Shown: piece by piece, positions 1,249 through 11,220 of the stretch
Layout of the letters: each line of letters opens with the position of its first letter
Position numbering within the stretch: the stretch's first letter is position 1
IMG/VR virus record: IMGVR_UViG_3300044641_002674
Span: 1-21,331 of that record
DNA from: a virus
Strand: one strand, 5' to 3'
DNA length: 21,331 nt
The notes under the pieces: model-generated
What the model was told of the DNA's origin: nothing
What the model saw: only the letters and a program-made list of their open reading frames with translations
Databases searched by the model: none
Position numbers and translations under genes: made by a program

Positions 1249-1264
1249 TGTGATTTCACTCACA
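1249..1264. promoter_or_regulatory. CRP/GlxR-type box TGTGA-N6-TCACA
   Basis: TGTGATTTCACTCACA, perfect half-sites. Its centre is 83.5 bp from the first base of the P2 -10. Confidence 0.65.
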
Positions 1265-2465: not shown

Positions 2466-2494
2466 ATCATACACCACCCCACCGACATATGCAA
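2466..2494 (-). promoter_or_regulatory. Promoter P3 with TGTC-16-(-10) element
   Basis: -35 TTGCAT (2489-2494), 17-bp spacer, -10 TATGAT (2466-2471); TGTCGGT begins 16 nt before the -10. Drives the DUF932 gene. Confidence 0.8.
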
Positions 2495-2516: not shown

Positions 2517-2529
2517 CAAATCGGACATT
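2517..2529 (-). promoter_or_regulatory. AATGTCCGATTTG box
   Basis: Leftward-pointing copy of the dispersed AWATGTCCGWTTT motif, between P3 and its CRP-type box. Confidence 0.6.
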
Positions 2530-2535
2530 CCTTAA

Positions 2536-2551
2536 TGTGATTAAATTCACA
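2536..2551. promoter_or_regulatory. CRP/GlxR-type box
   Basis: TGTGATTAAATTCACA, both half-sites perfect. Its centre is 72.5 bp from the first base of the P3 -10. Confidence 0.7.
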
Positions 2552-2575: not shown

Positions 2576-2595
2576 TTATCCACAGGTTATCCACA
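2576..2595 (+). promoter_or_regulatory. Pair of TTATCCACA (DnaA-type) boxes
   Basis: Two exact copies, 2576-2584 and 2587-2595, starting 11 bp apart (one helical turn). The sequence equals the classical DnaA-box consensus. Confidence 0.7.
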
Positions 2596-2597
2596 AG

Positions 2598-2640
2598 CGG
2601 TTCGAAAATTTTGTTGAGCAGTTTTAGGACGTGCTCAGGT
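2598..2640 (-). terminator. Terminator: hairpin copy E plus CGAACCG tail
   Basis: Minus-strand hairpin TGAGCA...TGCTCA (2614-2640), then CAAAATTTTCGAACCG. It lies 19 nt beyond the stop of the 2659-3090 gene. The T-run is short, so termination may be weak. Confidence 0.6.
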
Positions 2641-2658
2641 CCATTTAGTAGCCCCCTA

Positions 2659-3090
2659 CTAAAAATCAATCCTATCAACTGAAGCGCTAAGCCAAGTGAT
2701 GTTGTCAGAATTATAAGACACTGATTCAAAATCAATATCGTTTACAACTGATTCTGTATCTTCATTGTGTGGTACCTGCACTGTTAAATTGTAGGTCACG
2801 GAAACCTCAACTTCAACTTCCTTGGTTAACTCAAAGCCACAAAGGTCCGCAAGTATCTCTGCGACTGTATCGGAGATTTCGTCATTTGATAAAGATTCAA
2901 GTACATAGTCCTTGATTTCATTGATAAGGTTTCCACGTTCAATCTGCAGTGTGGTTGCACGGGTTGACATATTAGATAAGTCTTCTTGCATACGAGCAAT
3001 GTACTCATCCTTCTTTTGAATTACTTCTTGCAAGGCAGAAATCTGTGTCTTAAGAAATTCTGTTGTTGCATTCATTACCGACTGGTCCAT
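2659..3090 (-). CDS. Coiled-coil hypothetical protein, 143 aa
   Basis: Residues about 8-65 form a heptad-like coiled coil (EFLKTQISALQEVIQKKDEY and onward), followed by an acidic linker and a beta-rich tail with alternating hydrophobics (VEVEVSVTYNLTVQVP, about 91-107). Proteins with this plan are frequent among actinophage early genes, with no known role. It is the single gene between promoter P4 and terminator copy E. The Shine-Dalgarno GAGG lies 9 nt before the ATG. Confidence 0.8.
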   Translation of the reverse strand: MDQSVMNATTEFLKTQISALQEVIQKKDEYIARMQEDLSNMSTRATTLQIERGNLINEIKDYVLESLSNDEISDTVAEILADLCGFELTKEVEVEVSVTYNLTVQVPHNEDTESVVNDIDFESVSYNSDNITWLSASVDRIDF

Positions 3091-3126
3091 TGGGGGCCTC
3101 TTTCTGTTAGGTTGTTTATATATTCA

Positions 3127-3156
3127 ATTGTACTACTGGCGACTGACATTTGTCAA
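3127..3156 (-). promoter_or_regulatory. Promoter P4 with TGTC-16-(-10) element
   Basis: -35 TTGACA (3151-3156, consensus), 18-bp spacer, -10 TACAAT (3127-3132); TGTCAGT begins 16 nt before the -10. The -35 and this element form a TGACA-AA-TGTCA palindrome. It lies at the junction with the previous gene's stop and has no CRP-type box. Confidence 0.8.
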
Positions 3157-3654
3157 CTACCAAGATGATGAGTAATAGAATGATAACTTATCAACTTCGT
3201 CTAGAGCAAAGATACGCTCTAACTGACTGACAGTATCCTTTAGGTCATTCCAGTACCATTCGTCAATATCTGTTCCACCAAAGAAAAATCCTTCTTGTGG
3301 TGGGAATAGGCTAGGGTCTTTAGTTTCTAATGCGTGCTTGCATAGTGCTAGCAACTCTATTAGTTTATCTTGTGATACATAGTAGTCTCCACAGTTATCA
3401 TTACCACCTTGCACTTCTCTTACGAACCAAGAATGTATCTGATTAGCCTTGCGCCAGTAGGCACAGGTTACAGATACTTCTGCTCCATAGATATCTGTTG
3501 CAACATCTGATAGTTGTGTCAGTTCCAGTAGGTCATTAAATTTTGGGTATACCGCTTCAGGAGATAAATAAGATAGTTCACTATTATCCTGTAAGGCTTT
3601 CCAGTTGATTTTTTCTAGGTGCTTCTTAGCGCTGAGATACATATCTAATCCCAT
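3157..3654 (-). CDS. MGLDMYL-type conserved phage protein, 165 aa
   Basis: A conserved but uncharacterised phage/bacterial family recognisable by its N-terminus MGLDMYLSAK, the aromatic block AYWRKANQIHSWFV (about 65-78), the NCGDYYVS segment (about 87-94), EGFFFGG (121-127) and DEWYWNDL (131-138). It is full length by comparison with remembered relatives, and the conserved aromatic and acidic residues are present. Expressed alone from P5. The role is unknown; the aromatic conservation suggests a binding protein rather than an enzyme, which is inference. Confidence 0.82.
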   Translation of the reverse strand: MGLDMYLSAKKHLEKINWKALQDNSELSYLSPEAVYPKFNDLLELTQLSDVATDIYGAEVSVTCAYWRKANQIHSWFVREVQGGNDNCGDYYVSQDKLIELLALCKHALETKDPSLFPPQEGFFFGGTDIDEWYWNDLKDTVSQLERIFALDEVDKLSFYYSSSW

Positions 3655-3690
3655 TGGGGGCTTCCTTCTTTCTGTTTTGATATTAATATA

Positions 3691-3720
3691 ATTCTAGCAG
3701 GTTGGACCGACAAATGCCAA
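3691..3720 (-). promoter_or_regulatory. Promoter P5 with TGTC-16-(-10) element
   Basis: -35 TTGGCA (3715-3720), 18-bp spacer, extended -10 TGCTAGAAT (hexamer 3691-3696); TGTCGGT begins 16 nt before the -10. Drives 3157-3654. Confidence 0.78.
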
Positions 3721-3759
3721 TCGTAAGCCCAGAGATCTTAAATAGTGAGACGTAAAGCA

Positions 3760-3775
3760 TGTGAGAAAGATCACA
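3760..3775. promoter_or_regulatory. CRP/GlxR-type box
   Basis: TGTGAGAAAGATCACA, centre 71.5 bp from the first base of the P5 -10. It directly abuts the CGAACCG tail of the upstream terminator. Confidence 0.68.
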
Positions 3776-3817
3776 CGGTTCGAAAAATTTTTGAGCAGTT
3801 TATCAACTTACTCAGGT
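3776..3817 (-). terminator. Terminator: hairpin copy A plus T-tract and CGAACCG
   Basis: Minus-strand hairpin (3791-3817) with a nine-pair stem TGAGTAAGTT/AACTGCTCA (one bulge, one G-U), then AAAAATTTTTCGAACCG. It is the last of three tandem hairpins after the 3973-4401 gene. Confidence 0.7.
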
Positions 3818-3961
3818 TGTTTGCCTCGTGGCACCTTCGTGCATCTTGCAAAGTTATGTGAGCAGTTTATACACTTACTCAGGTGATGCAGAGGCAGGTA
3901 CCTTAGTCTGGAACCCCTGCAATTATTAAATTGTGTGAGCAGTTTAGCGACTTACTCAGGT
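3791..3961 (-). repeat. Three tandem hairpin repeats (copies A, B, C)
   Basis: The gene-free stretch 3655-3972 holds P5, a CRP-type box and three copies of a 23-bp core at 3791-3817, 3857-3884 and 3933-3961. On the minus strand each reads CCTGAGTAAGT-N3-TAAACTGCTCA. Both stem and part of the loop are conserved, beyond what a plain terminator needs. The 39-48 nt between copies have little in common beyond short GGTACC/GGTGCC words. Only copy A has a T-tract. No credible ORF lies here. Confidence 0.75.
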
Positions 3962-3972
3962 CGTTTATCTAA

Positions 3973-4401
3973 TTAAAGATAACGGGCTACCGCATTGTAG
4001 GTAGAAGTATTTACGACTTCCTCGTCGGTCATCTTTAGGATACGAATTGCATTTGCAATTTCCTCTTTCTGACTACGATATTCGTGCTGACCCATCATCT
4101 CAAAATCACGCTCAGGAGATGTTGGAAGGTCTGACTCTGAAAGACCTGTTAGGTCAAAGTCAATGTTTAGTGTTCCGTTCCAAGAACGAAATGATGTGCG
4201 GAAGTTTTCTGCCTTCTTGATGTTTGCAATCGCATAGGCAATCATTTCCTTCTTGTACTTCTCGTTAGCCTTCTGAAACTTTGCTTCATTGGCTTCTTGT
4301 GATGTGTAGTCAAGTTCTAGTTTAGCAAGTGCTGACTCTAGTGCCTTGATTACTTTGGTCGTTGCGATTTTTACGCTAATTGCTTTTCCTTTTGTTGCCA
4401 T
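3973..4401 (-). CDS. Lys/Ala-rich hypothetical protein, 142 aa
   Basis: Residues about 10-75 are a long amphipathic helix rich in Lys, Ala and Glu (ALESALAKLELDYTSQEANE and onward), then a short beta segment (GTLNIDFDLTGL), and a C-terminal helical part (EEIANAIRILKMTDEEVVN). Probably coiled-coil and soluble. The Shine-Dalgarno is only AAAGAAAAGAG. Upstream is hairpin copy D and the 54-aa gene, with no clear promoter of its own, so it is likely cotranscribed from P6. Function unknown. Confidence 0.78.
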   Translation of the reverse strand: MATKGKAISVKIATTKVIKALESALAKLELDYTSQEANEAKFQKANEKYKKEMIAYAIANIKKAENFRTSFRSWNGTLNIDFDLTGLSESDLPTSPERDFEMMGQHEYRSQKEEIANAIRILKMTDEEVVNTSTYNAVARYL

Positions 4402-4446
4402 TGTGTTTTCTCTTTTCTTTGGTGGTTGATTTTTTTAGGGGGATTT

Positions 4447-4474
4447 AGTGAGCCTTTTTACAACTTGCTCAGGT
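4447..4474 (-). repeat. Hairpin family copy D
   Basis: Minus-strand TGAGC...GCTCA with loop AAGTTGTAAAAAG; the most diverged copy (GGCTCA in place of CTGCTCA). Lies between 4538 and 4401 without a T-tract, so it may be an attenuator or processing site within the operon. Confidence 0.55.
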
Positions 4475-4518
4475 TGTCCCACTCTATTTATTTAGACACG
4501 CATTTCTGTGGGGCGTGT

Positions 4519-4537
4519 ATTTAGCGTTATGCTAAAA
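4519..4537 (-). terminator. Small hairpin after the 54-aa gene
   Basis: TTTAGC/GCTAAA stem (4520-4525 and 4531-4536) with 5-nt loop, directly after the stop. Weak: only six pairs, no long T-run. Confidence 0.35.
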
Positions 4538-4702
4538 TTACTTGGCTGTCCAAGTTGTGTAGCGTGTAGAACCTGCTACATCTAACTTCACACGCACATT
4601 ACCATTTGCGAGTGGCTTGATTTCCTGAATTGTGCCAGTTACCTTTGACTTCTGTGAAGTGTAAGTGTCGCCGACCTTGTATGTTGCTGTTGATACGCTC
4701 AT
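4538..4702 (-). CDS. Small beta-rich protein, 54 aa
   Basis: Begins MSVSTATYKVGDTYTSQKSK, then VTGTIQEIKPLANGNVRVKL. This alternating pattern (strand, Gly turn, strand) looks like a small five-stranded SH3/KOW-like barrel, and similar VGDTYTS..VTGTI proteins occur in actinophages as best I recall. A strong AAGGAGAAA Shine-Dalgarno precedes the ATG. It is the first gene after promoter P6. Function unknown; nucleic-acid binding is possible by fold analogy only. Confidence 0.78.
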   Translation of the reverse strand: MSVSTATYKVGDTYTSQKSKVTGTIQEIKPLANGNVRVKLDVAGSTRYTTWTAK

Positions 4703-4738
4703 TTGTTTCTCCTTTGTAGTTGTTTTTGCTTATATCTA

Positions 4739-4767
4739 AGTTTAGCAAAAAATCTAAGAAATATCAA
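4739..4767 (-). promoter_or_regulatory. Promoter P6
   Basis: -35 TTGATA (4762-4767), 17-bp spacer, -10 TAAACT (4739-4744) with extended TGC. Its spacer (TTTCTTAGATTTTTTGC) is nearly identical to that of P7, so the two are related copies. It lacks the TGTC element. Confidence 0.75.
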
Positions 4768-4807
4768 ATCCTACCCCTAGATTTCTCACTATTTGAGACG
4801 ATTTGTG

Positions 4808-4823
4808 TGTGATTTAGGTCACA
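4808..4823. promoter_or_regulatory. CRP/GlxR-type box
   Basis: TGTGATTTAGGTCACA inside a longer GTGTGA...TCACAC palindrome; centre 71.5 bp from the first base of the P6 -10. Confidence 0.68.
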
Positions 4824-4826
4824 CGC

Positions 4827-4892
4827 CTAGTGTCCCGACCCTGCTATCACTAGGATAGTCAGTAATAGGGCTATTACATATAGGATTTCCAT
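4827..4892 (-). CDS. Single-span membrane micropeptide, 21 aa
   Basis: Begins MEILYVIALLLTILVIAG and ends GSGH: almost wholly one hydrophobic helix. A strong Shine-Dalgarno GAGGGG overlaps the stop codon of the upstream GP88-like gene, with 5-nt spacing to ATG, which supports real translation. It ends four bases before the CRP-type box at 4808-4823. One of several tiny hydrophobic peptides in the leftward arm. Role unknown; membrane perturbation, host exclusion or complex assembly are all possible. Confidence 0.6.
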   Translation of the reverse strand: MEILYVIALLLTILVIAGSGH

Positions 4893-4901
4893 ATAGACCC
4901 C

Positions 4902-5624
4902 TCATTTTTTGGTTGCACTAAACACTATATCAGATTTCTCATAAATACACAACTTGCAGGTTGCACACGCTGAGCCTTTCTGTGATATAAGTGGAATAGA
5001 CTTTTTATTCTCAGGGCATTTAGCCCCAGGGCGTGAGGTTAGTTCTTTCATATCTGCCTGACCTAGTGCAAAGTTTTTGGCAAGATATGCGAGAGATATT
5101 CCGTGATCTGTTTTAAGACCAATTCCAATAGCCTTGTTCTCGCTATCAGTAGAATAATATAGAGATAGATTTTCAATACCCTTTAGCATTAAGGCGGATG
5201 ACTTAACACGGGTATATACCCAGAATTGAATATCAGGGTTATTAAGGATTACATTCTGCCAGGCTAGTGTATAGGTATCATTAAAAAAATCGCCGTCCCA
5301 GTGGATACGGAATTGCATAGGCGCATTGCGCTTAACACAATCATTTCTAAATTCTTCAATCATTTCTGATAGCAATACTTGCATAGTATCAAAATCTGCA
5401 TTGCGTAGTAGATCCCAGTTATGCAATAAGTTTTTCTTTACTGTTGGGAATACCTTTTCCAGTTTTCCTGCGTAGCAAACCGACTCACACACACTGGTTG
5501 CACCAGGGCACGAGTAAGCCTTTCCAGCAGGTAATCCAAAAGTGTTGGCGATACTTGCTTGTTTTCCGTTAGGTGTGACGGCATTAGCGACCTTTCTATC
5601 TTTTGAGCGTAGTAGTTTAGTCAT
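4902..5624 (-). CDS. GP88-like Cys-rich phage protein
   Basis: A 240-aa protein resembling the actinophage 'gene product 88' family. N-terminal Cys motif CPGATSVCESVCYAG (C39, C46, C50), a central RIHWDGDFFND motif (R106-D116), VYTRVKSSALML (136-147), and a C-terminal cluster C203 plus C220-x2-C223-x2-C226. Seven ordered cysteines suggest a metal or Fe-S site, and the RxHxDGDF motif a catalytic or structural acidic patch. No enzymatic role is established. The Shine-Dalgarno GAGGG precedes the ATG. Its start overlaps the stop of the 50-aa gene upstream by 8 nt, and promoter P8 lies within that gene. Confidence 0.85.
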   Translation of the reverse strand: MTKLLRSKDRKVANAVTPNGKQASIANTFGLPAGKAYSCPGATSVCESVCYAGKLEKVFPTVKKNLLHNWDLLRNADFDTMQVLLSEMIEEFRNDCVKRNAPMQFRIHWDGDFFNDTYTLAWQNVILNNPDIQFWVYTRVKSSALMLKGIENLSLYYSTDSENKAIGIGLKTDHGISLAYLAKNFALGQADMKELTSRPGAKCPENKKSIPLISQKGSACATCKLCIYEKSDIVFSATKK

Positions 5625-5769
5625 ATATTGACCCTCTTTCTTTTCTTAATTCTAGCATTTGGCTCTGACATTTTTTTCTGTCGTACTTCTTTTTATTTGG
5701 TACGGCTGAGGCAGCGTTGCTACGGCGTAATTCCATAAGCCTACGTAATTCCTCAGATGTTTTTTTCAT
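5617..5769 (-). CDS. Basic small protein, 50 aa, leaderless
   Basis: Begins MKKTSEELRRLMELRRSNAA; strongly basic (KKKYDRKKC) and helical, with one Cys. The ATG starts 7 nt after the -10 hexamer of P7, so the mRNA is probably leaderless. Its end overlaps the GP88-like start by 8 nt. The basic charge suggests nucleic-acid contact. The alternative is that it is an untranslated leader, but the promoter and overlap geometry favour a gene. Confidence 0.65.
   Translation of the reverse strand: MKKTSEELRRLMELRRSNAASAVPNKKKYDRKKCQSQMLELRKERGSIYD
5649..5670 (-). promoter_or_regulatory. Internal promoter P8 with TGTC-16-(-10) element
   Basis: -10 TAGAAT (5649-5654), extended TGC; TGTCAGA begins 16 nt before it; the -35 region is only an A-run. 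Drives the GP88-like gene from within the 50-aa gene. Confidence 0.6.
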
Positions 5770-5775
5770 ACCTTA

Positions 5776-5804
5776 ATCATACCAAAAAATCTAGAAAATA
5801 TCAA
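5776..5804 (-). promoter_or_regulatory. Promoter P7 (leaderless)
   Basis: -35 TTGATA (5799-5804), 17-bp spacer, -10 TATGAT (5776-5781) with extended TGG. The predicted start site coincides with the ATG at 5769. Sister of P6. Confidence 0.75.
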
Positions 5805-5831
5805 ATCCTGGAGAATCGGGATAGTCTACGT

Positions 5832-5844
5832 AAAACGGACATTT
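5832..5844 (-). promoter_or_regulatory. AAATGTCCGTTTT box
   Basis: Leftward copy of the dispersed motif. A second half (TGTCC) follows directly, as in the copy at 8355. Confidence 0.6.
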
Positions 5845-5851
5845 AGGACAA

Positions 5852-5884
5852 CGGTTCGAAAAAATCTTGGGGGATACCCAAGAT
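5852..5884 (-). terminator. Rho-independent terminator
   Basis: Perfect eight-pair stem ATCTTGGG/CCCAAGAT (5864-5871 and 5877-5884), 5-nt loop, then six T and CGAACCG. The stem begins at the stop codon of the 5884-6129 gene. It ends the operon that starts at 7156. Confidence 0.85.
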
Positions 5885-6129
5885 CAATCCTCATCTCTTT
5901 CTATAAATACATATAGTTTAAACATTTCTTCATAGGTGCAAGAGTAATCATATTCCTCACCATATTCGTTACGATGAGTGATTACATAGTTATCACCTGT
6001 AGCGTCATCTGTAATTGCAATTACTTCTACAATATCCATATCAATATTGATTAAGTCGCCTTCCATTAATTGGCTAGGTGTAAGTAAGTCTGCATATACT
6101 AGTTCCATACGGGTTATTGTATCAGTCAT
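5884..6129 (-). CDS. Acidic hypothetical protein, 81 aa
   Basis: Begins MTDTITRMELVYADLLTPSQ, then LMEGDLINIDMDIVEVIAIT and DDATGDNYVITHRNEYGEEY. The pattern 'ADLLTPSQLMEGDLI...V.V.AI.DD.TGDNY' is one I recall in small actinophage proteins of unknown function; it looks like a compact beta-barrel with a helical tail. Last gene of the 5884-7156 operon, one base after the preceding stop, and directly followed by the terminator. Confidence 0.78.
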   Translation of the reverse strand: MTDTITRMELVYADLLTPSQLMEGDLINIDMDIVEVIAITDDATGDNYVITHRNEYGEEYDYSCTYEEMFKLYVFIERDED

Positions 6130-6130
6130 T

Positions 6131-6415
6131 TTAGTCCTCCCAATCAGGTAGCCAGAAAGATAGGTGGTGCTGGTCTACAATAGCCCTTGCAGGTGCTTGC
6201 GTACTTCCACGATATAAAATCTGAAAGTCTCCAACCTTTGGCATATCAATCATTCGGTCATAGTCCTCATCATAGTATGCGTCAATAGCCTCAATACAAG
6301 GTGCTACCATTTCTGCGGGTACTGGTGGATAGTGATTACCTTTAAGGTGATATAGTATCTGAGTTTCTAAATCTAAAACTGTGTCCTGTAGTCCTAGGGC
6401 TGTTACGCTTCCCAT
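6131..6415 (-). CDS. Hypothetical protein, 94 aa
   Basis: Begins MGSVTALGLQDTVLDLETQI and contains YHLKGNHYPPVPAEMVAPCI, then an acidic IDAYYDEDYDRM stretch and the tail HHLSFWLPDWED. The GNHYPPVP...CIEAIDAY block appears in phage hypothetical proteins as I remember it. Probably helical and soluble. TAC/TAATG-type close packing with its neighbours; internal gene of the operon. No function assigned. Confidence 0.75.
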   Translation of the reverse strand: MGSVTALGLQDTVLDLETQILYHLKGNHYPPVPAEMVAPCIEAIDAYYDEDYDRMIDMPKVGDFQILYRGSTQAPARAIVDQHHLSFWLPDWED

Positions 6416-6416
6416 A

Positions 6417-6557
6417 TTAGTATGCTCCTTCTGTTAGTGGTGGTGTTAAGTTTAGTGCATATACGCACTCTTGGCAAATCGGTGAGTCAAATCGGTAATC
6501 AAACTTAGTATCATCTAAGTTCTCATAGCATTCCTCGCAATAGGTTAGATCGCTCAT
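6417..6557 (-). CDS. Zinc-ribbon-like miniprotein, 46 aa
   Basis: Begins MSDLTYCEECYENLDDTKFD, with knuckles CEEC (7-10) and CQEC (28-31): a CxxC-x17-CxxC arrangement typical of small zinc ribbons. The gene overlaps its upstream neighbour by one base (TAATG). Likely binds zinc and may contact nucleic acid or protein; the partner is unknown. Confidence 0.7.
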   Translation of the reverse strand: MSDLTYCEECYENLDDTKFDYRFDSPICQECVYALNLTPPLTEGAY

Positions 6558-6697
6558 TAGTTACCCCAATCTACAAGTACGCCGTCAATAGCGTCCTGTA
6601 TATCTGCCTCAAATATTGCTAATTCATCTTGGCTCAATTTTCTAACAAAAGAATTTTTATCATTAGACTTCCAAATAATTATCTCTGCGTTTATCAT
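6557..6697 (-). CDS. Hypothetical protein, 46 aa
   Basis: Begins MINAEIIIWKSNDKNSFVRK, then LSQDELAIFEADIQDAIDGV: a short strand followed by an acidic helix. TAATG overlap at its 3' end and ATGA overlap at its 5' end show translational coupling. No family recognised. Confidence 0.68.
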   Translation of the reverse strand: MINAEIIIWKSNDKNSFVRKLSQDELAIFEADIQDAIDGVLVDWGN

Positions 6698-6909
6698 TTT
6701 GCTACTACCTCTCCGTTACGATAAAAAGTTTTAGTATGCATTTTGCCTGACGGCTCTGATAAATTGACGACTCTGTATTCATTAGCGTCTCCATAGTCAA
6801 TAAAACTATTAAAGACATTTACTGCGTCAAGGGCATTGGCATAGCGACCAACCCAATTAGGGCTAGTGGCACTATCGTTGGTGCTGGTTACTGCGTATAG
6901 ATATTCCAT
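6694..6909 (-). CDS. Hypothetical protein, 71 aa
   Basis: Begins MEYLYAVTSTNDSATSPNWV, with GRYANALDAVNVFNSFIDYG and a C-terminal VVNLSEPSGKMHTKTFYRNG. Looks like a small alpha/beta protein (strand, helix, two strands). ATGA overlap downstream and TAATG upstream. Function unknown. Confidence 0.75.
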   Translation of the reverse strand: MEYLYAVTSTNDSATSPNWVGRYANALDAVNVFNSFIDYGDANEYRVVNLSEPSGKMHTKTFYRNGEVVAK

Positions 6910-7010
6910 TAGTTATAACTTCCTTTACATTCTGAACATAGATAGTTTAATTTGCAATAGCAACCTAGTTGGATAGGTGCTGGGTTTTCATAGTAGTCAT
7001 CATAGGACAT
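6909..7010 (-). CDS. Cys-rich miniprotein, 33 aa
   Basis: Begins MSYDDYYENPAPIQLGCYCK and ends NYLCSECKGSYN: CxC followed by CxxC, a possible single zinc knuckle. Coupled on both sides by TAATG overlaps. One of at least six Cys-rich miniproteins in the leftward arm. Confidence 0.62.
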   Translation of the reverse strand: MSYDDYYENPAPIQLGCYCKLNYLCSECKGSYN

Positions 7011-7156
7011 TAGTTGTTCTCCTTAGTTAAAAATAGTTGGTGGGTATTAGCATATTCTATCATCGCTTCTGCCTCTCGGTCAAGGTAGCAAGTGAAACAA
7101 TATAGAGTAGTTATGTCTACTGAGTTTTCATTACATTGTAAGCATAGGTCGGTCAT
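7010..7156 (-). CDS. Zinc-ribbon-like miniprotein, 48 aa
   Basis: First gene of its operon. Begins MTDLCLQCNENSVDITTLYC, giving CLQC (5-8) and CFTC (20-23), then an acidic helix (YLDREAEAMIEYANTHQ). The AAGAAGG Shine-Dalgarno lies 6 nt upstream, and promoter P9 31 nt upstream. Likely binds one zinc; role unknown. Confidence 0.72.
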   Translation of the reverse strand: MTDLCLQCNENSVDITTLYCFTCYLDREAEAMIEYANTHQLFLTKENN

Positions 7157-7187
7157 TGGGAGCCTTCTTTCTTAAGTTGATATAAAT

Positions 7188-7217
7188 ATCCTATCATATG
7201 GGGGAGACAAAAGATAA
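7188..7217 (-). promoter_or_regulatory. Promoter P9 with TGTC-16-(-10) element
   Basis: -35 TTATCT (7212-7217), 18-bp spacer, -10 TAGGAT (7188-7193) with extended TGA; TGTC begins 16 nt before the -10. Drives the seven-gene operon 5884-7156. Confidence 0.65.
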
Positions 7218-7230
7218 TCCGTAAAGGGGT

Positions 7231-7243
7231 AAATCGGACATTT
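7231..7243 (-). promoter_or_regulatory. AAATGTCCGATTT box
   Basis: Exact consensus copy, leftward, between P9 and its CRP-type box. Confidence 0.65.
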
Positions 7244-7247
7244 GGAG

Positions 7248-7263
7248 TGTGATAAATCTCACA
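7248..7263. promoter_or_regulatory. CRP/GlxR-type box
   Basis: TGTGATAAATCTCACA inside GTGTGA...TCACAC; centre 62.5 bp from the first base of the P9 -10. Confidence 0.7.
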
Positions 7264-7273
7264 CGTAAAGGCC

Positions 7274-7303
7274 TGTGGATAACTTAATCCAGCCTGTGGA
7301 TAA
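7274..7303 (-). promoter_or_regulatory. Pair of TTATCCACA (DnaA-type) boxes
   Basis: Two exact copies on the minus strand (7274-7282 and 7295-7303), starting 21 bp apart (two helical turns), each followed by GG. Confidence 0.7.
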
Positions 7304-7305
7304 CT

Positions 7306-7346
7306 CGGTTCGAAAAAACTTAAGCAGTTTTGAATCTTGCTTAGGA
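7306..7346 (-). terminator. Terminator: hairpin copy G plus T-tract and CGAACCG
   Basis: Minus-strand stem TAAGCA/TGCTTA (7320-7346), then AAGTTTTTTCGAACCG. The TAAGC/GCTTA stem carries a compensatory change relative to the TGAGC/GCTCA of other copies. On the plus strand the hairpin is followed by seven T. Confidence 0.75.
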
Positions 7347-7354
7347 TTTTTTTA

Positions 7355-7420
7355 TTATGTTCCAGAGATCATTAGGAATGCAAGAAAACAAATCCCAAGA
7401 ATGATTAGCGTTATAGTCAT
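7355..7420 (-). CDS. Single-span membrane micropeptide, 21 aa
   Basis: Begins MTITLIILGICFLAFLMI and ends SGT: one hydrophobic helix, as long and as placed (last gene before a terminator) as the 21-aa peptide at 4827-4892. Its start overlaps the stop of the 7417-7587 gene (ATGA), which supports coupled translation. Role unknown. Confidence 0.62.
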   Translation of the reverse strand: MTITLIILGICFLAFLMISGT

Positions 7421-7587
7421 TTCATACACGCCTCTCTAAATATTTCGTGTTTGAAGTTTGGGTTATCCTCTGAAAACATTCCAGAGAAATCCTCTACCAA
7501 ATCCTCAAAAGTAAATTCATCACCGATTAAATCTTTATACGATGAAAGAATTTCTGCAACGGCTACATAGTCTTTACGGGTCATCAT
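7417..7587 (-). CDS. Conserved small phage protein, 56 aa
   Basis: Begins MMTRKDYVAVAEILSSYKDL and continues EDLVEDFSGMFSEDNPNFKH. The layout MTRKDYV..A.IL, followed by an acidic segment and 'DNP.F....F', is common in small phage proteins I recall from several aquatic and actinobacterial phages. Two consecutive ATG codons; either could start it. TAATG overlap upstream, ATGA downstream. Confidence 0.75.
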   Translation of the reverse strand: MMTRKDYVAVAEILSSYKDLIGDEFTFEDLVEDFSGMFSEDNPNFKHEIFREACMK

Positions 7588-7793
7588 TATTCGGCCACCT
7601 TTAGAATTGCATAAGAGCCGTTTTCGTTTAGGTGGTCAATTGCTGGCTGAATAGCAGGCGCAAGCAATTCTTTTAGCATTGACTCAAGCATAGCAATTTG
7701 CATTTCTTGAGGTAGTGATAGCAAGCGAATGCCTACTGGGTGGGTTTCGTCTACTTCTGTGATGAAGTTTAGTGAGTGTTGAATTTGTACCAT
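7587..7793 (-). CDS. Hypothetical helical protein, 68 aa
   Basis: Begins MVQIQHSLNFITEVDETHPV, then an amphipathic helix (LPQEMQIAMLESMLKELLAP) and the tail NGSYAILKVAE. The Shine-Dalgarno AAAGGACAG precedes the ATG and promoter P10 lies 54 nt upstream. First gene of a three-gene operon ending in the 21-aa membrane peptide. Family not recognised. Confidence 0.75.
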   Translation of the reverse strand: MVQIQHSLNFITEVDETHPVGIRLLSLPQEMQIAMLESMLKELLAPAIQPAIDHLNENGSYAILKVAE

Positions 7794-7846
7794 TTTTATC
7801 TGTCCTTTGTTAGTTGTTAGTTTGGCATTTGCATTTTGTTATTTTA

Positions 7847-7877
7847 ATTGTATCACCTTCCACCGACAAGGTGGCAA
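7847..7877 (-). promoter_or_regulatory. Promoter P10 with TGTC-16-(-10) element
   Basis: -10 TACAAT (7847-7852) with extended TGA; TGTCGGT begins 16 nt before it. -35 TTGCCA (7872-7877) is 19 bp away, long for sigma-70-type spacing. No CRP-type box nearby. Confidence 0.65.
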
Positions 7878-7910
7878 GTGTGTTGCAAGAGTCGCAGATG
7901 AATATTTCCA

Positions 7911-8075
7911 CTAGTGTTGTTCCTCGCAATTTTTGTCGTAGTCAAATCCACAATAGTAGCAACCCATAAATTCTGAGTGTTCAATGCAATAGTATTTAAA
8001 TTGACTTGAGTCGCAGCAGAAGTGTTGCTCGTCTATGATTTCATAGAATTCTGTTTTATCAACGACTGCACTCAT
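7911..8075 (-). CDS. Cys-rich miniprotein, 54 aa
   Basis: Begins MSAVVDKTEFYEIIDEQHFC, with C20, C21, C30, then GCYYCGFDYDKNC (C39, C42, C49) and His residues between. The spacing allows a zinc site such as CC..C..CxxC. TAATG/ATGA-type overlap with 8075-8287 upstream. Ends shortly before P10. Role unknown. Confidence 0.7.
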   Translation of the reverse strand: MSAVVDKTEFYEIIDEQHFCCDSSQFKYYCIEHSEFMGCYYCGFDYDKNCEEQH

Positions 8076-8287
8076 TATTCACCAACCTTTACTGCAACGG
8101 TGCGGTAAGTGTTACGCCAAGCGCCCCAACCGCTATTAGGTGCAACCTCTACAAGATAGGTTTCACAACCTTCATACCAAATTGGCTGAGGGTGCGGTCT
8201 TGCGCTTACGATTTCTCCACGCAAGGTTTTAGATACATATTGTTTTCCCACTAGTAGGGACTGGACTGAGTATACATTTGCAGACAT
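8075..8287 (-). CDS. Beta-rich hypothetical protein, 70 aa
   Basis: Begins MSANVYSVQSLLVGKQYVSK, then TLRGEIVSARPHPQPIWYEG and NTYRTVAVKVGE: alternating strands with a Trp-rich turn (GWGAWRNTY), reminiscent of small SH3-like barrels. First gene of a two-gene operon under P11, with AAAGTGAG as a weak Shine-Dalgarno. No family recognised. Confidence 0.75.
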   Translation of the reverse strand: MSANVYSVQSLLVGKQYVSKTLRGEIVSARPHPQPIWYEGCETYLVEVAPNSGWGAWRNTYRTVAVKVGE

Positions 8288-8321
8288 AAGTTTGTCTCAC
8301 TTTCTTTTTCTTTATATTCTA

Positions 8322-8350
8322 AGTGTACCAGTTTGGACCGACATTATCAA
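8322..8350 (-). promoter_or_regulatory. Promoter P11 with TGTC-16-(-10) element
   Basis: -35 TTGATA (8345-8350), 17-bp spacer, -10 TACACT (8322-8327), extended TGG; TGTCGGT begins 16 nt before the -10. Confidence 0.78.
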
Positions 8351-8354
8351 ATCC

Positions 8355-8368
8355 AAATTCGGACATTT
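8355..8368 (-). promoter_or_regulatory. AAATGTCCGAATTT box
   Basis: Leftward copy of the dispersed motif, with an added TGTCC half directly upstream (as at 5832). Confidence 0.58.
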
Positions 8369-8381
8369 AGGACATATTTTT

Positions 8382-8397
8382 TGTGACTTTCGTCACA
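8382..8397. promoter_or_regulatory. CRP/GlxR-type box
   Basis: TGTGACTTTCGTCACA; centre 62.5 bp from the first base of the P11 -10, the same distance as at P9. Confidence 0.7.
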
Positions 8398-8490
8398 CTG
8401 ATTTATGGACTTATTTAATTTTATAAGATAATACTAGCATACAAAATCCAAAAAGTCAAGCCGACACGCCGTAAATCAGGGAATATTTCG

Positions 8491-8506
8491 TGTGACCTTA
8501 ATCACA
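8491..8506. promoter_or_regulatory. CRP/GlxR-type box without an adjacent promoter
   Basis: TGTGACCTTAATCACA, perfect half-sites, flanked by two copies of CGACACGCC (8462-8470 and 8518-8526). It is 171.5 bp from the P11 -10. Confidence 0.6.
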
Positions 8507-8532
8507 AACGTAAATAGCGACACGCCCGACCG

Positions 8533-8549
8533 CGTTCGAAAAATTCTTG
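8533..8549 (-). terminator. T-tract with CGAACGCG after the 32-aa gene
   Basis: Minus strand GCAAGAATTTTTCGAACGCG directly after the stop codon: same tail as the other operon ends. I could not find a convincing hairpin of the GAGCA family before it, so the termination call rests on the tail alone. The stretch 8288-8549 holds no gene. Confidence 0.4.
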
Positions 8550-8648
8550 CTACTCCCTTGCGTGCAAATAGAAAGAATAAATTAGTGTGATCATTGAAAA
8601 CCATAGAAGTGCATTACCACTTACGAAAAAGGTTTGATAAAAACTCAT
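8550..8648 (-). CDS. Membrane micropeptide, 32 aa
   Basis: Begins MSFYQTFFVSGNALLWFSMI, continues TLIYSFYLHARE: one membrane-spanning helix with a short basic C-terminus. Strong Shine-Dalgarno GAGGAGAAA. ATGA overlap with the gene upstream. Last gene of the long operon starting at 9974, again next to an operon end like the two 21-aa peptides. Confidence 0.65.
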   Translation of the reverse strand: MSFYQTFFVSGNALLWFSMITLIYSFYLHARE

Positions 8649-8791
8649 TGTTGTTTCTCCTCAATTTCTGCGACATATACATCTCCTCTTTCAATGTTTC
8701 CATATTTTAATTTAAAATCAAAATTTTCAATTGCTTCATCATAGTTATCTGCTTCAATATTTATGAAGGTAGTAAATTCAAAGATAGCCAT
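8645..8791 (-). CDS. Acidic hypothetical protein, 48 aa
   Basis: Begins MAIFEFTTFINIEADNYDEA, then IENFDFKLKYGNIERGDVYV. The pattern 'strand, ADNYDEAIENF helix, strand' is common in small phage alpha/beta proteins whose role is unknown. ATGA overlap with the next gene. Confidence 0.68.
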   Translation of the reverse strand: MAIFEFTTFINIEADNYDEAIENFDFKLKYGNIERGDVYVAEIEEKQQ

Positions 8792-8792
8792 A

Positions 8793-8966
8793 TTATTTTT
8801 CTCCCATCTCGTCAAGGTCTGCCTTGAACAATTTATAGATTCTTTCTTTTTCTTTATCTGGCGTGTTAGCCCATAGATAACCTAGCAGATAGTGTGTTCC
8901 ACTATCTCGGTCATTGTTACGAATTTGACGGCATATAGCCAATGTATCTTGTAGTTCAAGGCTCAT
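8793..8966 (-). CDS. Hypothetical helical protein, 57 aa
   Basis: Begins MSLELQDTLAICRQIRNNDR, then an LLGYLWANTPDKEKERIY segment and a charged helical tail. One base before the next start; TAATG with the gene upstream. No family recognised. Confidence 0.68.
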   Translation of the reverse strand: MSLELQDTLAICRQIRNNDRDSGTHYLLGYLWANTPDKEKERIYKLFKADLDEMGEK

Positions 8967-9070
8967 TAGTTATTTTCCTTTTCCAATCTAGTTAGTGAAA
9001 TATAGTCATAGATATTTACATAGACTATGTATGCGACATATAGCGATAATAAAATAAAAATTGTTTTCAT
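8966..9070 (-). CDS. Membrane micropeptide, 34 aa
   Basis: Begins MKTIFILLSLYVAYIVYVNI, followed by a charged tail YDYISLTRLEKENN: N-in or signal-anchor-like single span. TAATG overlaps at both ends. One of five hydrophobic micropeptides in this window. Confidence 0.65.
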   Translation of the reverse strand: MKTIFILLSLYVAYIVYVNIYDYISLTRLEKENN

Positions 9071-9249
9071 TACTTTCCCTCATTCTCTTTAGCGATCATC
9101 TCTTTTAGATAGTCAATCGCTACTTGTCTACCATTCTTGTAGCCAGTACCTACAATAGTGCGAGGTGCAACCTCTTTTGCCATTAGTGCATCTAGCATCT
9201 CTTGGTGAGTCATTGTGGCGGTATCGCCTAGATCATATTTATATCTCAT
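9070..9249 (-). CDS. Hypothetical protein, 59 aa
   Basis: Begins MRYKYDLGDTATMTHQEMLD, then ALMAKEVAPRTIVGTGYKNG and a basic/acidic helical end. The middle (EVAPRTIVGTGYKNGRQVAI) resembles a small helix-turn-helix-like arrangement but I cannot confirm one. TAATG overlaps at both ends. Confidence 0.68.
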   Translation of the reverse strand: MRYKYDLGDTATMTHQEMLDALMAKEVAPRTIVGTGYKNGRQVAIDYLKEMIAKENEGK

Positions 9250-9383
9250 TAGTTTTTCTCACTTTCTTTTTGAGAATGGATAATTTCGTTTTGCTTAGCG
9301 GCGTTTTCAAGAATTGCCATAGCGTCAATGCGTGAGAATAAGCGTTTATCGCTTACGAATTTTTTATATTCATCAAGGTTCAT
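9249..9383 (-). CDS. MNLDEY-type helical protein, 44 aa
   Basis: Begins MNLDEYKKFVSDKRLFSRID; helical and charged. The first residues match those of the 31-aa rightward gene at 10715-10810 (MNLDEYRAHVEAQRK), which also lies in a cluster with related neighbours. TAATG overlaps with both neighbours. Function unknown. Confidence 0.68.
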   Translation of the reverse strand: MNLDEYKKFVSDKRLFSRIDAMAILENAAKQNEIIHSQKESEKN

Positions 9384-9559
9384 TATTTGTTTCCTTTCAA
9401 GTGACCTGATATTCCAAGAGTATCGCAAGATACTTGCAACACTACCGACTTAGGTAGTGCATTACTTAGTGCGCTGATATAGTTACGCACTTCTGACGGG
9501 GTACTGAAAGACATAGCCTTAGTAGTACCATTGAACGAAGTTAGTTTAAGCGTTATCAT
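9383..9559 (-). CDS. LTS-G-T paralog, 58 aa
   Basis: Begins MITLKLTSFNGTTKAMSFST and ends SCDTLGISGHLKGNK. It aligns along its length with the rightward protein at 10982-11161 (LTSMAGNTRNINLSTKQEV... TCDLLGIDGYLQGENK): shared LTS, G-T, ST.xEV, LP, V(S/T)CD.LGI.G.L.G. A duplicated gene family flanking the divergent hub. Role unknown. Confidence 0.72.
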   Translation of the reverse strand: MITLKLTSFNGTTKAMSFSTPSEVRNYISALSNALPKSVVLQVSCDTLGISGHLKGNK

Positions 9560-9723
9560 TACTTAACCCCCTTATATAGAAAATCCCAAGCCTTACGGCA
9601 GATTAGAATGCTTTCGCAATTATCGCAACAAATAGACCCTTCAGGGTTAAGGTTAATATCATATGCATCTACATATGAAGTTTTGTTTCCGCAGACGGAA
9701 TCAAGTGGATATAGTGTACTCAT
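9559..9723 (-). CDS. Cys-rich miniprotein, 54 aa
   Basis: Begins MSTLYPLDSVCGNKTSYVDA; C11, then ICCDNCESILICRKAWDF with CxxC and further Cys. It resembles the rightward protein at 10539-10718 (VCKEHT... FCENCENNIERWYND) in the order VC, then C(D/E)NCE, then a Trp-containing tail. Probable zinc-binding protein; TAATG overlaps at both ends. Confidence 0.68.
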   Translation of the reverse strand: MSTLYPLDSVCGNKTSYVDAYDINLNPEGSICCDNCESILICRKAWDFLYKGVK

Positions 9724-9974
9724 TAGTTAGTACCAACTTTCTTTAGTAGTGAAGTGATAGCGACATATCGCTTAGCGATTAGTACCGCTTTAGGGTTAGG
9801 GGTAGAATAGAATCTACCTTGTGAGTAATCGCTAGGATATTTTTCAGCAATACGCTGAGCGATACGGATAGGGAGAGTGTTAGTAGTAGGTGCATATCCA
9901 CCTGCTTCTAATCCAAATTCTTTAGCGATATCGCTACGAATTTCTGAGTAGTAGTTATTTATTGAGTGAGTCAT
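9723..9974 (-). CDS. Hypothetical protein, 83 aa
   Basis: First gene of the leftward operon that starts at the divergent hub. Begins MTHSINNYYSEIRSDIAKEF, then GLEAGGYAPTTNTLPIRIAQ and a basic C-terminus (KAVLIAKRYVAITSLLKKVG). The central RIAQRIAEKYPSDYSQGRF could be a DNA-contacting helix but is not a recognised domain. AAAGGGG Shine-Dalgarno; P12 lies 56 nt upstream. Confidence 0.75.
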   Translation of the reverse strand: MTHSINNYYSEIRSDIAKEFGLEAGGYAPTTNTLPIRIAQRIAEKYPSDYSQGRFYSTPNPKAVLIAKRYVAITSLLKKVGTN

Positions 9975-10029
9975 ATTTGACCCCTTTCTTTAGCGGATTT
10001 CTTTACCGCTTGTTTTTCTTTATATAGAT

Positions 10030-10058
10030 ATTATAGCAGGGGGGTACGACATTGACTC
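10030..10058 (-). promoter_or_regulatory. Promoter P12 with TGTC-16-(-10) element
   Basis: -10 TATAAT (10030-10035, consensus) with extended TGC; TGTCGTA begins 16 nt before it; -35 GAGTCA (10053-10058) at 17 bp. Drives the nine-gene operon 8550-9974. Confidence 0.75.
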
Positions 10059-10095
10059 ATATTATGTAAAGTAAATTATCACCATAAACTAGGTC

Positions 10096-10108
10096 AAAAC
10101 GGACATAT
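10096..10108 (-). promoter_or_regulatory. ATATGTCCGTTTT box
   Basis: Leftward copy of the dispersed motif, between P12 and a CRP-type box. Confidence 0.58.
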
Positions 10109-10114
10109 GGGATA

Positions 10115-10130
10115 TGTGAAGTGCGTCACA
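10115..10130. promoter_or_regulatory. CRP/GlxR-type box
   Basis: TGTGAAGTGCGTCACA; centre 87.5 bp from the first base of the P12 -10, slightly off the phase of the others. Confidence 0.62.
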
Positions 10131-10138
10131 TTTATAGA

Positions 10139-10206
10139 CATGACTGATCATGAGCCTATGCGCCTATGACTGGTCATGAGCAGGGGTGCACAAGACTGGT
10201 CATCTG
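10139..10206. repeat. Three iterons with 26-bp period
   Basis: Near-palindromic units ATGACTGATCATGAGC (10140-10155), ATGACTGGTCATGAGC (10166-10181) and AGACTGGTCATCTG (10193-10206). The shared GACTG word begins at 10142, 10168 and 10194, exactly 26 bp apart. They lie between the leftward and rightward promoters, directly beside a DnaA-type box pair. Candidate operator array or replication-initiator site. The region 9975-10355 has no convincing gene. Confidence 0.72.
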
Positions 10207-10225
10207 TGGATAACCCTGTGGATAA
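10205..10225 (-). promoter_or_regulatory. Pair of TTATCCACA (DnaA-type) boxes
   Basis: Exact copies at 10205-10213 and 10217-10225, starting 12 bp apart, followed rightward by an AT-rich T-run (TTTTTTTCGATTTTTTT). The first overlaps the third iteron. Confidence 0.7.
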
Positions 10226-10244: not shown

Positions 10245-10260
10245 TGTGGTCTAAATCACA
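10245..10260. promoter_or_regulatory. CRP/GlxR-type box
   Basis: TGTGGTCTAAATCACA (one mismatch); centre 62.5 bp upstream of the first base of the rightward -10 at 10315, the same distance as for P9 and P11. Confidence 0.65.
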
Positions 10261-10264
10261 CTAG

Positions 10265-10277
10265 AAATGTCCGATTT
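10265..10277 (+). promoter_or_regulatory. AAATGTCCGATTT box
   Basis: Exact consensus copy pointing rightward, followed by a second TGTCCG. It lies between the CRP-type box and the rightward promoter, the same order as at leftward operons. Confidence 0.62.
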
Positions 10278-10291
10278 GTCCGTGTCTAAAC

Positions 10292-10320
10292 TTGACTTTT
10301 TGACATTTTTGTGCTATACT
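10292..10320 (+). promoter_or_regulatory. Rightward promoter 1
   Basis: -35 TTGACT (10292-10297), 17-bp spacer, -10 TATACT (10315-10320) with extended TGC. Confidence 0.78.
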
Positions 10321-10981: not shown

Positions 10982-11161
10982 ATGAAAGTAACACTAACCT
11001 CAATGGCGGGGAATACTCGCAATATCAATCTCTCAACAAAGCAAGAGGTCTATGACTTTATAGAATTGTTTAAGAGTACGCTACTACCTACACAGCGCAT
11101 GAAAGTAACATGCGACCTACTAGGTATAGACGGATACCTGCAAGGAGAAAATAAAATTTAG
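10982..11161 (+). CDS. LTS-G-T paralog, 59 aa
   Basis: Begins MKVTLTSMAGNTRNINLSTK and ends TCDLLGIDGYLQGENKI. Paralog of the leftward 9383-9559 protein (shared LTS, EV, LP, V-T/S-CD-LGI-G-L motifs). Last gene of the rightward early cluster; its stop overlaps the first of three 24-bp repeats. Confidence 0.72.
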   Translation: MKVTLTSMAGNTRNINLSTKQEVYDFIELFKSTLLPTQRMKVTCDLLGIDGYLQGENKI

Positions 11162-11220
11162 CGGGTACTACTCGCAATAATTTTGCGGGTACCAGTACAA
11201 TTAACTTAGTGGGTACTACT
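11161..11220 (+). repeat. Three direct repeats, 24-bp period
   Basis: GCGGGTACTACT, GCGGGTACCAGT and GTGGGTACTACT start at 11161, 11185 and 11209. The intervals are exactly 24 bp; only the first 12 bp are conserved. No start codon gives a gene here. Confidence 0.7.

Follow-up and report, generated by a model that had tools for sequence, protein, structure and literature searches.

Phages of the T4 type carry mobile regulatory cassettes, repeated intergenic modules that combine a promoter with a stem-loop RNA. In phage lambda, the host initiator DnaA binds DNA near pO and stimulates ori-lambda transcription (PMC3985674), and DnaA can be titrated by clusters of its boxes, as at Escherichia coli datA (PMC5835720). 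Here we examine the IMG/VR virus record IMGVR_UViG_3300044641_002674 (positions 1 to 21,331, a stretch of 21,331 bases that we call the window), in which the exact DnaA box TTATCCACA occurs six times, as three tandem pairs with both boxes in the same orientation. Pair I (2576-2584 and 2587-2595, plus strand, 11 base pairs (bp) from start to start) lies upstream of a DUF932 gene, pair III (7274-7282 and 7295-7303, minus strand, 21 bp) upstream of a short early operon, and pair IV (10205-10213 and 10217-10225, minus strand, 12 bp) in the divergent region between a leftward and a rightward operon. We lean towards a reading in which these pairs dock host DnaA, modulate early operons and also serve as a DnaA sink, with the replication origin elsewhere.

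The pairs were first noticed in a first-pass annotation of the sequence, and their coordinates, spacing and placement in intergenic cassettes are all confirmed. Two pairs are overlapped by small open reading frames, but these are mechanical calls that belong to no family common to the relatives. Dinucleotide shuffling of the window gives 0.28 expected boxes and a maximum of 2 in 100 shuffles, against the 6 observed; one-mismatch boxes are no more frequent than usual (10 versus 7.6 expected), so the signal is restricted to exact boxes. We then turned to 80 relatives fetched from IMG/VR, whose DUF932 proteins are 84-93% identical to that of the window; 66 are non-redundant, and ten are long records of 77-118 kilobases (kb). 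The 66 hold 301 copies of TTATCCACA versus 16.8 expected, with no enrichment of the Streptomyces-type box TTGTCCACA (8 versus 11.8) or of the reversed control (8 versus 14.2), and a chance origin is ruled out by the enrichment in both window and relatives. Of 307 boxes, 287 fall between genes, even though coding sequence is called over about 68% of the total. Nor is the box a piece of a longer repeated element, as its flanks vary while the spacing stays.

Among neighbouring boxes less than 60 bp apart in the relatives, 114 of 115 share orientation (the single opposed pair is spaced at 25), and the same-orientation distances take only the values 11-13, 21-23, 33-34, 41-45 and 53-55 bp. Many of these distances come from one syntenic cluster inherited by the relatives and hence are not independent; the 42 same-orientation distances left after that conserved cluster is excluded take no values other than 11-13, 21, 41-42 and 53 bp. 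The Rayleigh value computed for the phasing counts related loci as independent and so is no true probability. The first-pass annotation's view that the pairs are spaced by whole helical turns is thus borne out.

The same box dominates in the bacteria that these phages probably infect. Among bacterial genomes the best match, at 79% identity, is a DUF932 gene carried by a 4.7-kb contig of the metagenome-assembled genome (MAG) Actinomycetota bacterium WB8_2xO_007, which makes the family of this MAG, small-genome freshwater Actinomycetota, the probable host. Genomes of the family are roughly 1-2 megabases (Mb), and size and likely habitat suggest that it is Nanopelagicales-like. Its 30 dnaA loci contain 90 copies of TTATCCACA versus 4 of TTGTCCACA, so that the objection foreseen by the first-pass annotation, a host with a different box preference, does not apply in this family. 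Tandem boxes at these loci are mostly spaced 10 or 12 bp, and a G precedes the box in 73% of host copies and 79% of phage copies. Because the phage boxes match the host box exactly, are phased and are conserved, DnaA binding at the pairs is likely.

Along the direction of transcription, each cassette follows a common order: a pseudoknot RNA where there is one, the DnaA pair, a palindrome of the CRP type (TGTGA-N6-TCACA), a TGTCCG element and the promoter. The boxes stand about 90-130 bp upstream of early promoters, further out than the palindromes. A downstream promoter is recognisable for two of the pairs, and a -10 element only for the third. In cassette I, the predicted promoter (2466..2494, minus strand; -35 TTGCAT at 2494-2489, 17-bp spacer, -10 TATGAT at 2471-2466) can also be read in many relatives; the boxes are centred at about -121 and -132, the palindrome (2536..2551) at -84.5 and the TGTCCG element (2522..2527, minus) at -65.5. 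Cassette III has a probable -10 TATGAT (7193..7198, minus) with an unclear -35, boxes at about -92 and -113, a palindrome (7248..7263) at about -69.5 and a TGTCCG element at 7235-7240 (minus). On the rightward side of cassette IV, a putative promoter (10292..10320, plus; -35 TTGACT, 17-bp spacer, -10 TATACT) is preceded by a TGTCCG element (10268-10273, plus), a one-mismatch palindrome, TGTGG-N6-TCACA (10245..10260), at about -74.5 and the boxes at about -106 and -118. On its leftward side, a predicted -10 TATAAT (10030..10035, minus) has a TGTCCG element at 10100-10105 (minus), a palindrome (10115..10130) at about -99.5 and the boxes at about -186 and -198.

The accompanying elements are strongly enriched in their own right. 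The window holds eight exact TGTGA-N6-TCACA palindromes, including one in a cassette without DnaA boxes (1249..1264) and others at 3760-3775, 4808-4823, 8382-8397 and 8491-8506; the 66 relatives have 290 versus 1.4 expected, and in the ten long records they are restricted to the early block. In the relatives, a -10-like hexamer follows the start of the palindrome at exactly 49 bp in 57 of 298 cases (with related loci counted separately), at 70 bp in 19 and at 81 bp in 11. The host family encodes a CRP/GlxR-like protein with an RETV helix. A host CRP regulon does not explain the palindromes, as 31 host-family genomes contain 3 exact copies and little or no excess of one-mismatch copies, and no phage-encoded DnaA or CRP was found in the ten long relatives. 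The extended element TGTCCG[AT]TTT occurs 131 times in the 66 relatives versus 2.2 expected. Two further motifs were seen: a TGACYRGTCA palindrome (13 in the set versus roughly 3 expected by composition) and TTCGAAC, which directly follows T-runs at six window cassettes (1290-1296, 2600-2606, 3778-3784, 5854-5860, 7308-7314 and 8534-8540) and shows no enrichment in the 66 relatives (37 versus 73 expected).

With early genes read from left to right, box clusters recur at four places, after which the pairs are numbered. Of 63 loci compared at place I, ahead of DUF932, 11 carry a pair (the window and 10 of the 62 others), 8 carry one box and 44 carry no box; pair orientation varies among loci and is sometimes flipped with the spacing kept. 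Pairs corresponding to that in the place III gap are found in L034, L060, L064, L077 and other relatives, and place IV recurs in several, with boxes in comparable first-gene gaps often 41-42 bp apart. The ten long relatives have 1-13 boxes per genome, five of them 7 or more. The three window pairs are lineage-specific extras, optional modules upstream of early promoters.

Host DnaA would dock at these optional modules of composite early-operon promoters, two molecules sitting next to each other on the same helical face. Each early operon would then respond to the level of free DnaA, and the pairs together, along with the remaining boxes and with replication of the phage genome, would draw DnaA away from the few host boxes, the role of the pairs presumably being split between regulation and titration. 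The numbers would suffice for titration sites, with up to 13 boxes per phage genome and 5-13 on each of six host chromosomes of 1.2-1.6 Mb. The optional occurrence of the pairs, their distance upstream and their variable orientation are easier to reconcile with a sink that has some local influence on early operons than with an origin or a strict activator. Several observations weigh against our reading. Most homologous promoters lack pair I, and as only 11 of 63 loci have it, it is not essential for its promoter. Some long relatives have few boxes (one in G010, three in G008), and the distant positions (-92 to -132) and either orientation of the boxes are unlike those of a classical activator site. 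Finally, the host was assigned from a single phage contig (4.7 kb) in a MAG, which may be mis-binned, so the host is probable and not proven; the tRNA-Asp of the window is no help, as its best matches, at most 83-84% identity across about 50 bases, are uninformative.

The strongest competing account, although in our judgement rather improbable, is that the boxes only soak up DnaA and stop new rounds of host replication, their placement at promoters reflecting nothing but available non-coding DNA. Box numbers comparable with those of the host, orientation flips and turnover between relatives and the nearly complete restriction of boxes to intergenic DNA would all suit such a role, whereas titration by itself leaves unexplained why box pair, palindrome and promoter recur in one order, the constant cluster described below has extra conserved sequence and some relatives have few boxes. 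Somewhat less probable again is transcription control alone, in which DnaA at each pair would switch its neighbouring early operon when the free pool drops in the course of infection, and titration would be negligible. This has the precedent of lambda (PMC3985674) and the repeated placement of pairs upstream of promoters in its favour, but distance and orientation vary and the pair is missing at most homologous promoters.

Questions of origin function centre on place II, a gap at the downstream end of the early block about 4-7 kb beyond DUF932 and outside the window. It is the most constant site, with a close cluster of boxes, all in one same orientation, in 44 of 53 loci. Its layout comprises CTCCACT three times with a 10-bp period, AT-rich DNA that includes ATCAGTAAGATT and two boxes 11-12 bp apart, often with a third 33-34 bp further; the conserved non-coding element, with three phased CTCCACT and two to three boxes, is represented by L165:6140-6260 and corresponding places in relatives. 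The neighbouring genes vary, converging on the gap in many loci and not in others. A conserved box cluster with repeats and AT-rich DNA is the layout of DnaA-dependent origins, and the cluster looks like an origin, although a candidate only. One relative examined has genes of the DnaE, DnaB and RecA types, and a search of the ten long relatives found no phage DnaA; together these are compatible with host DnaA starting the phage replisome at this downstream cluster, where it would help to initiate phage replication. Near the cluster in one relative (L165:6844-12742) lie two adjacent glutathione-peroxidase-like genes, a 2OG-Fe(II) oxygenase gene and a JmjC-like gene.

The first-pass annotation had offered operon regulation, titration or origin function for the window pairs, and it is the last that fares poorly. 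Exact, phased, selected and host-matching boxes near promoters agree with the first two, whereas the cluster that resembles an origin is found at a fourth place, beyond the window, and is more constant than the three pairs. That each pair is a secondary origin, so that the phage would have several start points along with the constant cluster, is quite unlikely: pair IV is adjoined by T-rich sequence and by three GACTGNTCAT repeats at exact 26-bp steps (10142..10203, plus strand) and is equivocal in this respect, but pairs I and III have neither repeats nor an obvious melting region, and only the constant cluster is set in an extended origin-like context. Cumulative GC skew, proposed as a check, gives this idea no support and is uninformative as an origin test, as it tracks the coding strand and does not single out the place II cluster. 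Least probable of all is that a phage-encoded protein recognises the 9-mer, its likeness to a DnaA box being fortuitous, for while these phages encode many unknown proteins, the 9-mer is identical to the dominant box of host dnaA loci, which have similar tandem spacing of 10-12 bp and share the preceding G.

The nearest annotated phages by DUF932 (54.5% identity) are Streptomyces phages of the BE cluster, and these suggest where the boxes may have come from. Terminal repeats of roughly 11 kb are reported for cluster BE1 phages (PMC5764925). In keeping with this, the homologous early block of Riptide, a BE phage, is a direct terminal repeat, the first 10 kb recurring at the right end. Ahead of the right terminal repeat, the gap corresponding to place II contains clusters of two to four TTATCCACA (Riptide 121358/121382, NootNoot 120207/120229, LilMartin 121191-121274 and EGole 124219-124255), about 70-95 bp before the repeat start in Riptide and NootNoot; Coruscant has none in this gap. 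The box stretch is matched by 47 Streptomyces records, and eight further records were inspected: two or three exact boxes are present in six of them and a single one in the other two, and the spacers have diverged. The early blocks of three Streptomyces phages (L177-L179) contain TGTCCG[AT]TTT and have no box pairs or exact CRP palindromes, and because of this the genome-end cluster may be the ancestral feature, with the promoter pairs added later by the freshwater phages. We infer homology of the freshwater place II and Streptomyces clusters from position, not from alignment.

A broader and more tentative proposal is that freshwater actinophages spread DnaA sites from an ancestral genome-end cluster into their early promoters, where, together with CRP-type sites, they might read the replication state of the host while draining its initiator. 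If so, the early programme would be wired to both replication and nutrient regulators of the host. The bacterial initiator would serve the phage as sensor and target, linking early expression to the host cell cycle in a bacterial group that is among the most abundant in lakes. Initiator titration by a virus would also become open to test here, and place II, with its conserved layout, supplies a candidate phage origin. A search of the accessible literature turned up no account of DnaA boxes placed at the early promoters of phages of this kind, and 'DnaA' is absent from the main text of the freshwater actinophage papers checked.

The cassettes also carry a compact RNA, predicted to fold as an H-type pseudoknot (consensus NNNC-CT-GAGCA-W-GNNN-..AAAC-TGCTC). 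One copy lies upstream of pair I (2616..2643, minus strand), with further minus-strand copies at 1384-1411, 3793-3820, 3860-3887, 3937-3964 and 7322-7349 and no Rfam match at the window pseudoknot. The relatives have 247 copies on the sense strand and 2 on the opposite strand; 235 of the 247 are intergenic, mostly just past genes, at a median of 22 bases after the preceding stop. The RNA covaries: one stem-1 pair forms in 177 of 178 unique copies with four Watson-Crick types. Elsewhere, the left half of the window contains short minus-strand genes, the DUF932 and GP88 proteins and tRNA-Asp, and the right half encodes collagen-like and glycine-rich proteins, a lysozyme-like protein and a cement-protein match. 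Three 18-base AATTTAGCGGGTACTACT-type repeats at 24-bp steps lie at 11155-11220.

Set beside known systems, the pairs resemble the R-type 9-mers of bacterial oriC and dnaA loci in exact sequence, tandem arrangement, helical spacing and preceding G, but they are viral, occupy several separate sites at early promoters and, for pairs I and III, have no surrounding origin structure. As in the T4-type cassettes, promoter elements and an RNA are repeated between genes; here, however, the modules also include DnaA boxes and CRP palindromes and have a pseudoknot as their RNA, and presence and absence are seen among relatives. Lambda likewise has host DnaA acting in phage DNA near promoters, at pO/pR, coupling transcription with replication (PMC3985674), a role that is putative here; its DnaA-box-like sites are downstream of pO, whereas these are exact tandem pairs about 90-130 bp upstream of several operons. 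The boxes are candidates for withdrawing DnaA as the clustered boxes of E. coli datA can (PMC5835720), but the phage clusters are smaller, ride on a replicating phage genome and give no evidence of an IHF-type partner or ATP hydrolysis. Finally, although the early blocks of the three Streptomyces BE-cluster phages (Stanwilliamsviridae) examined are without box pairs and exact CRP palindromes, this group is similar in having homologous DUF932 and GP88 early genes, a box cluster, which lies near the terminal repeat, and the TGTCCG element.

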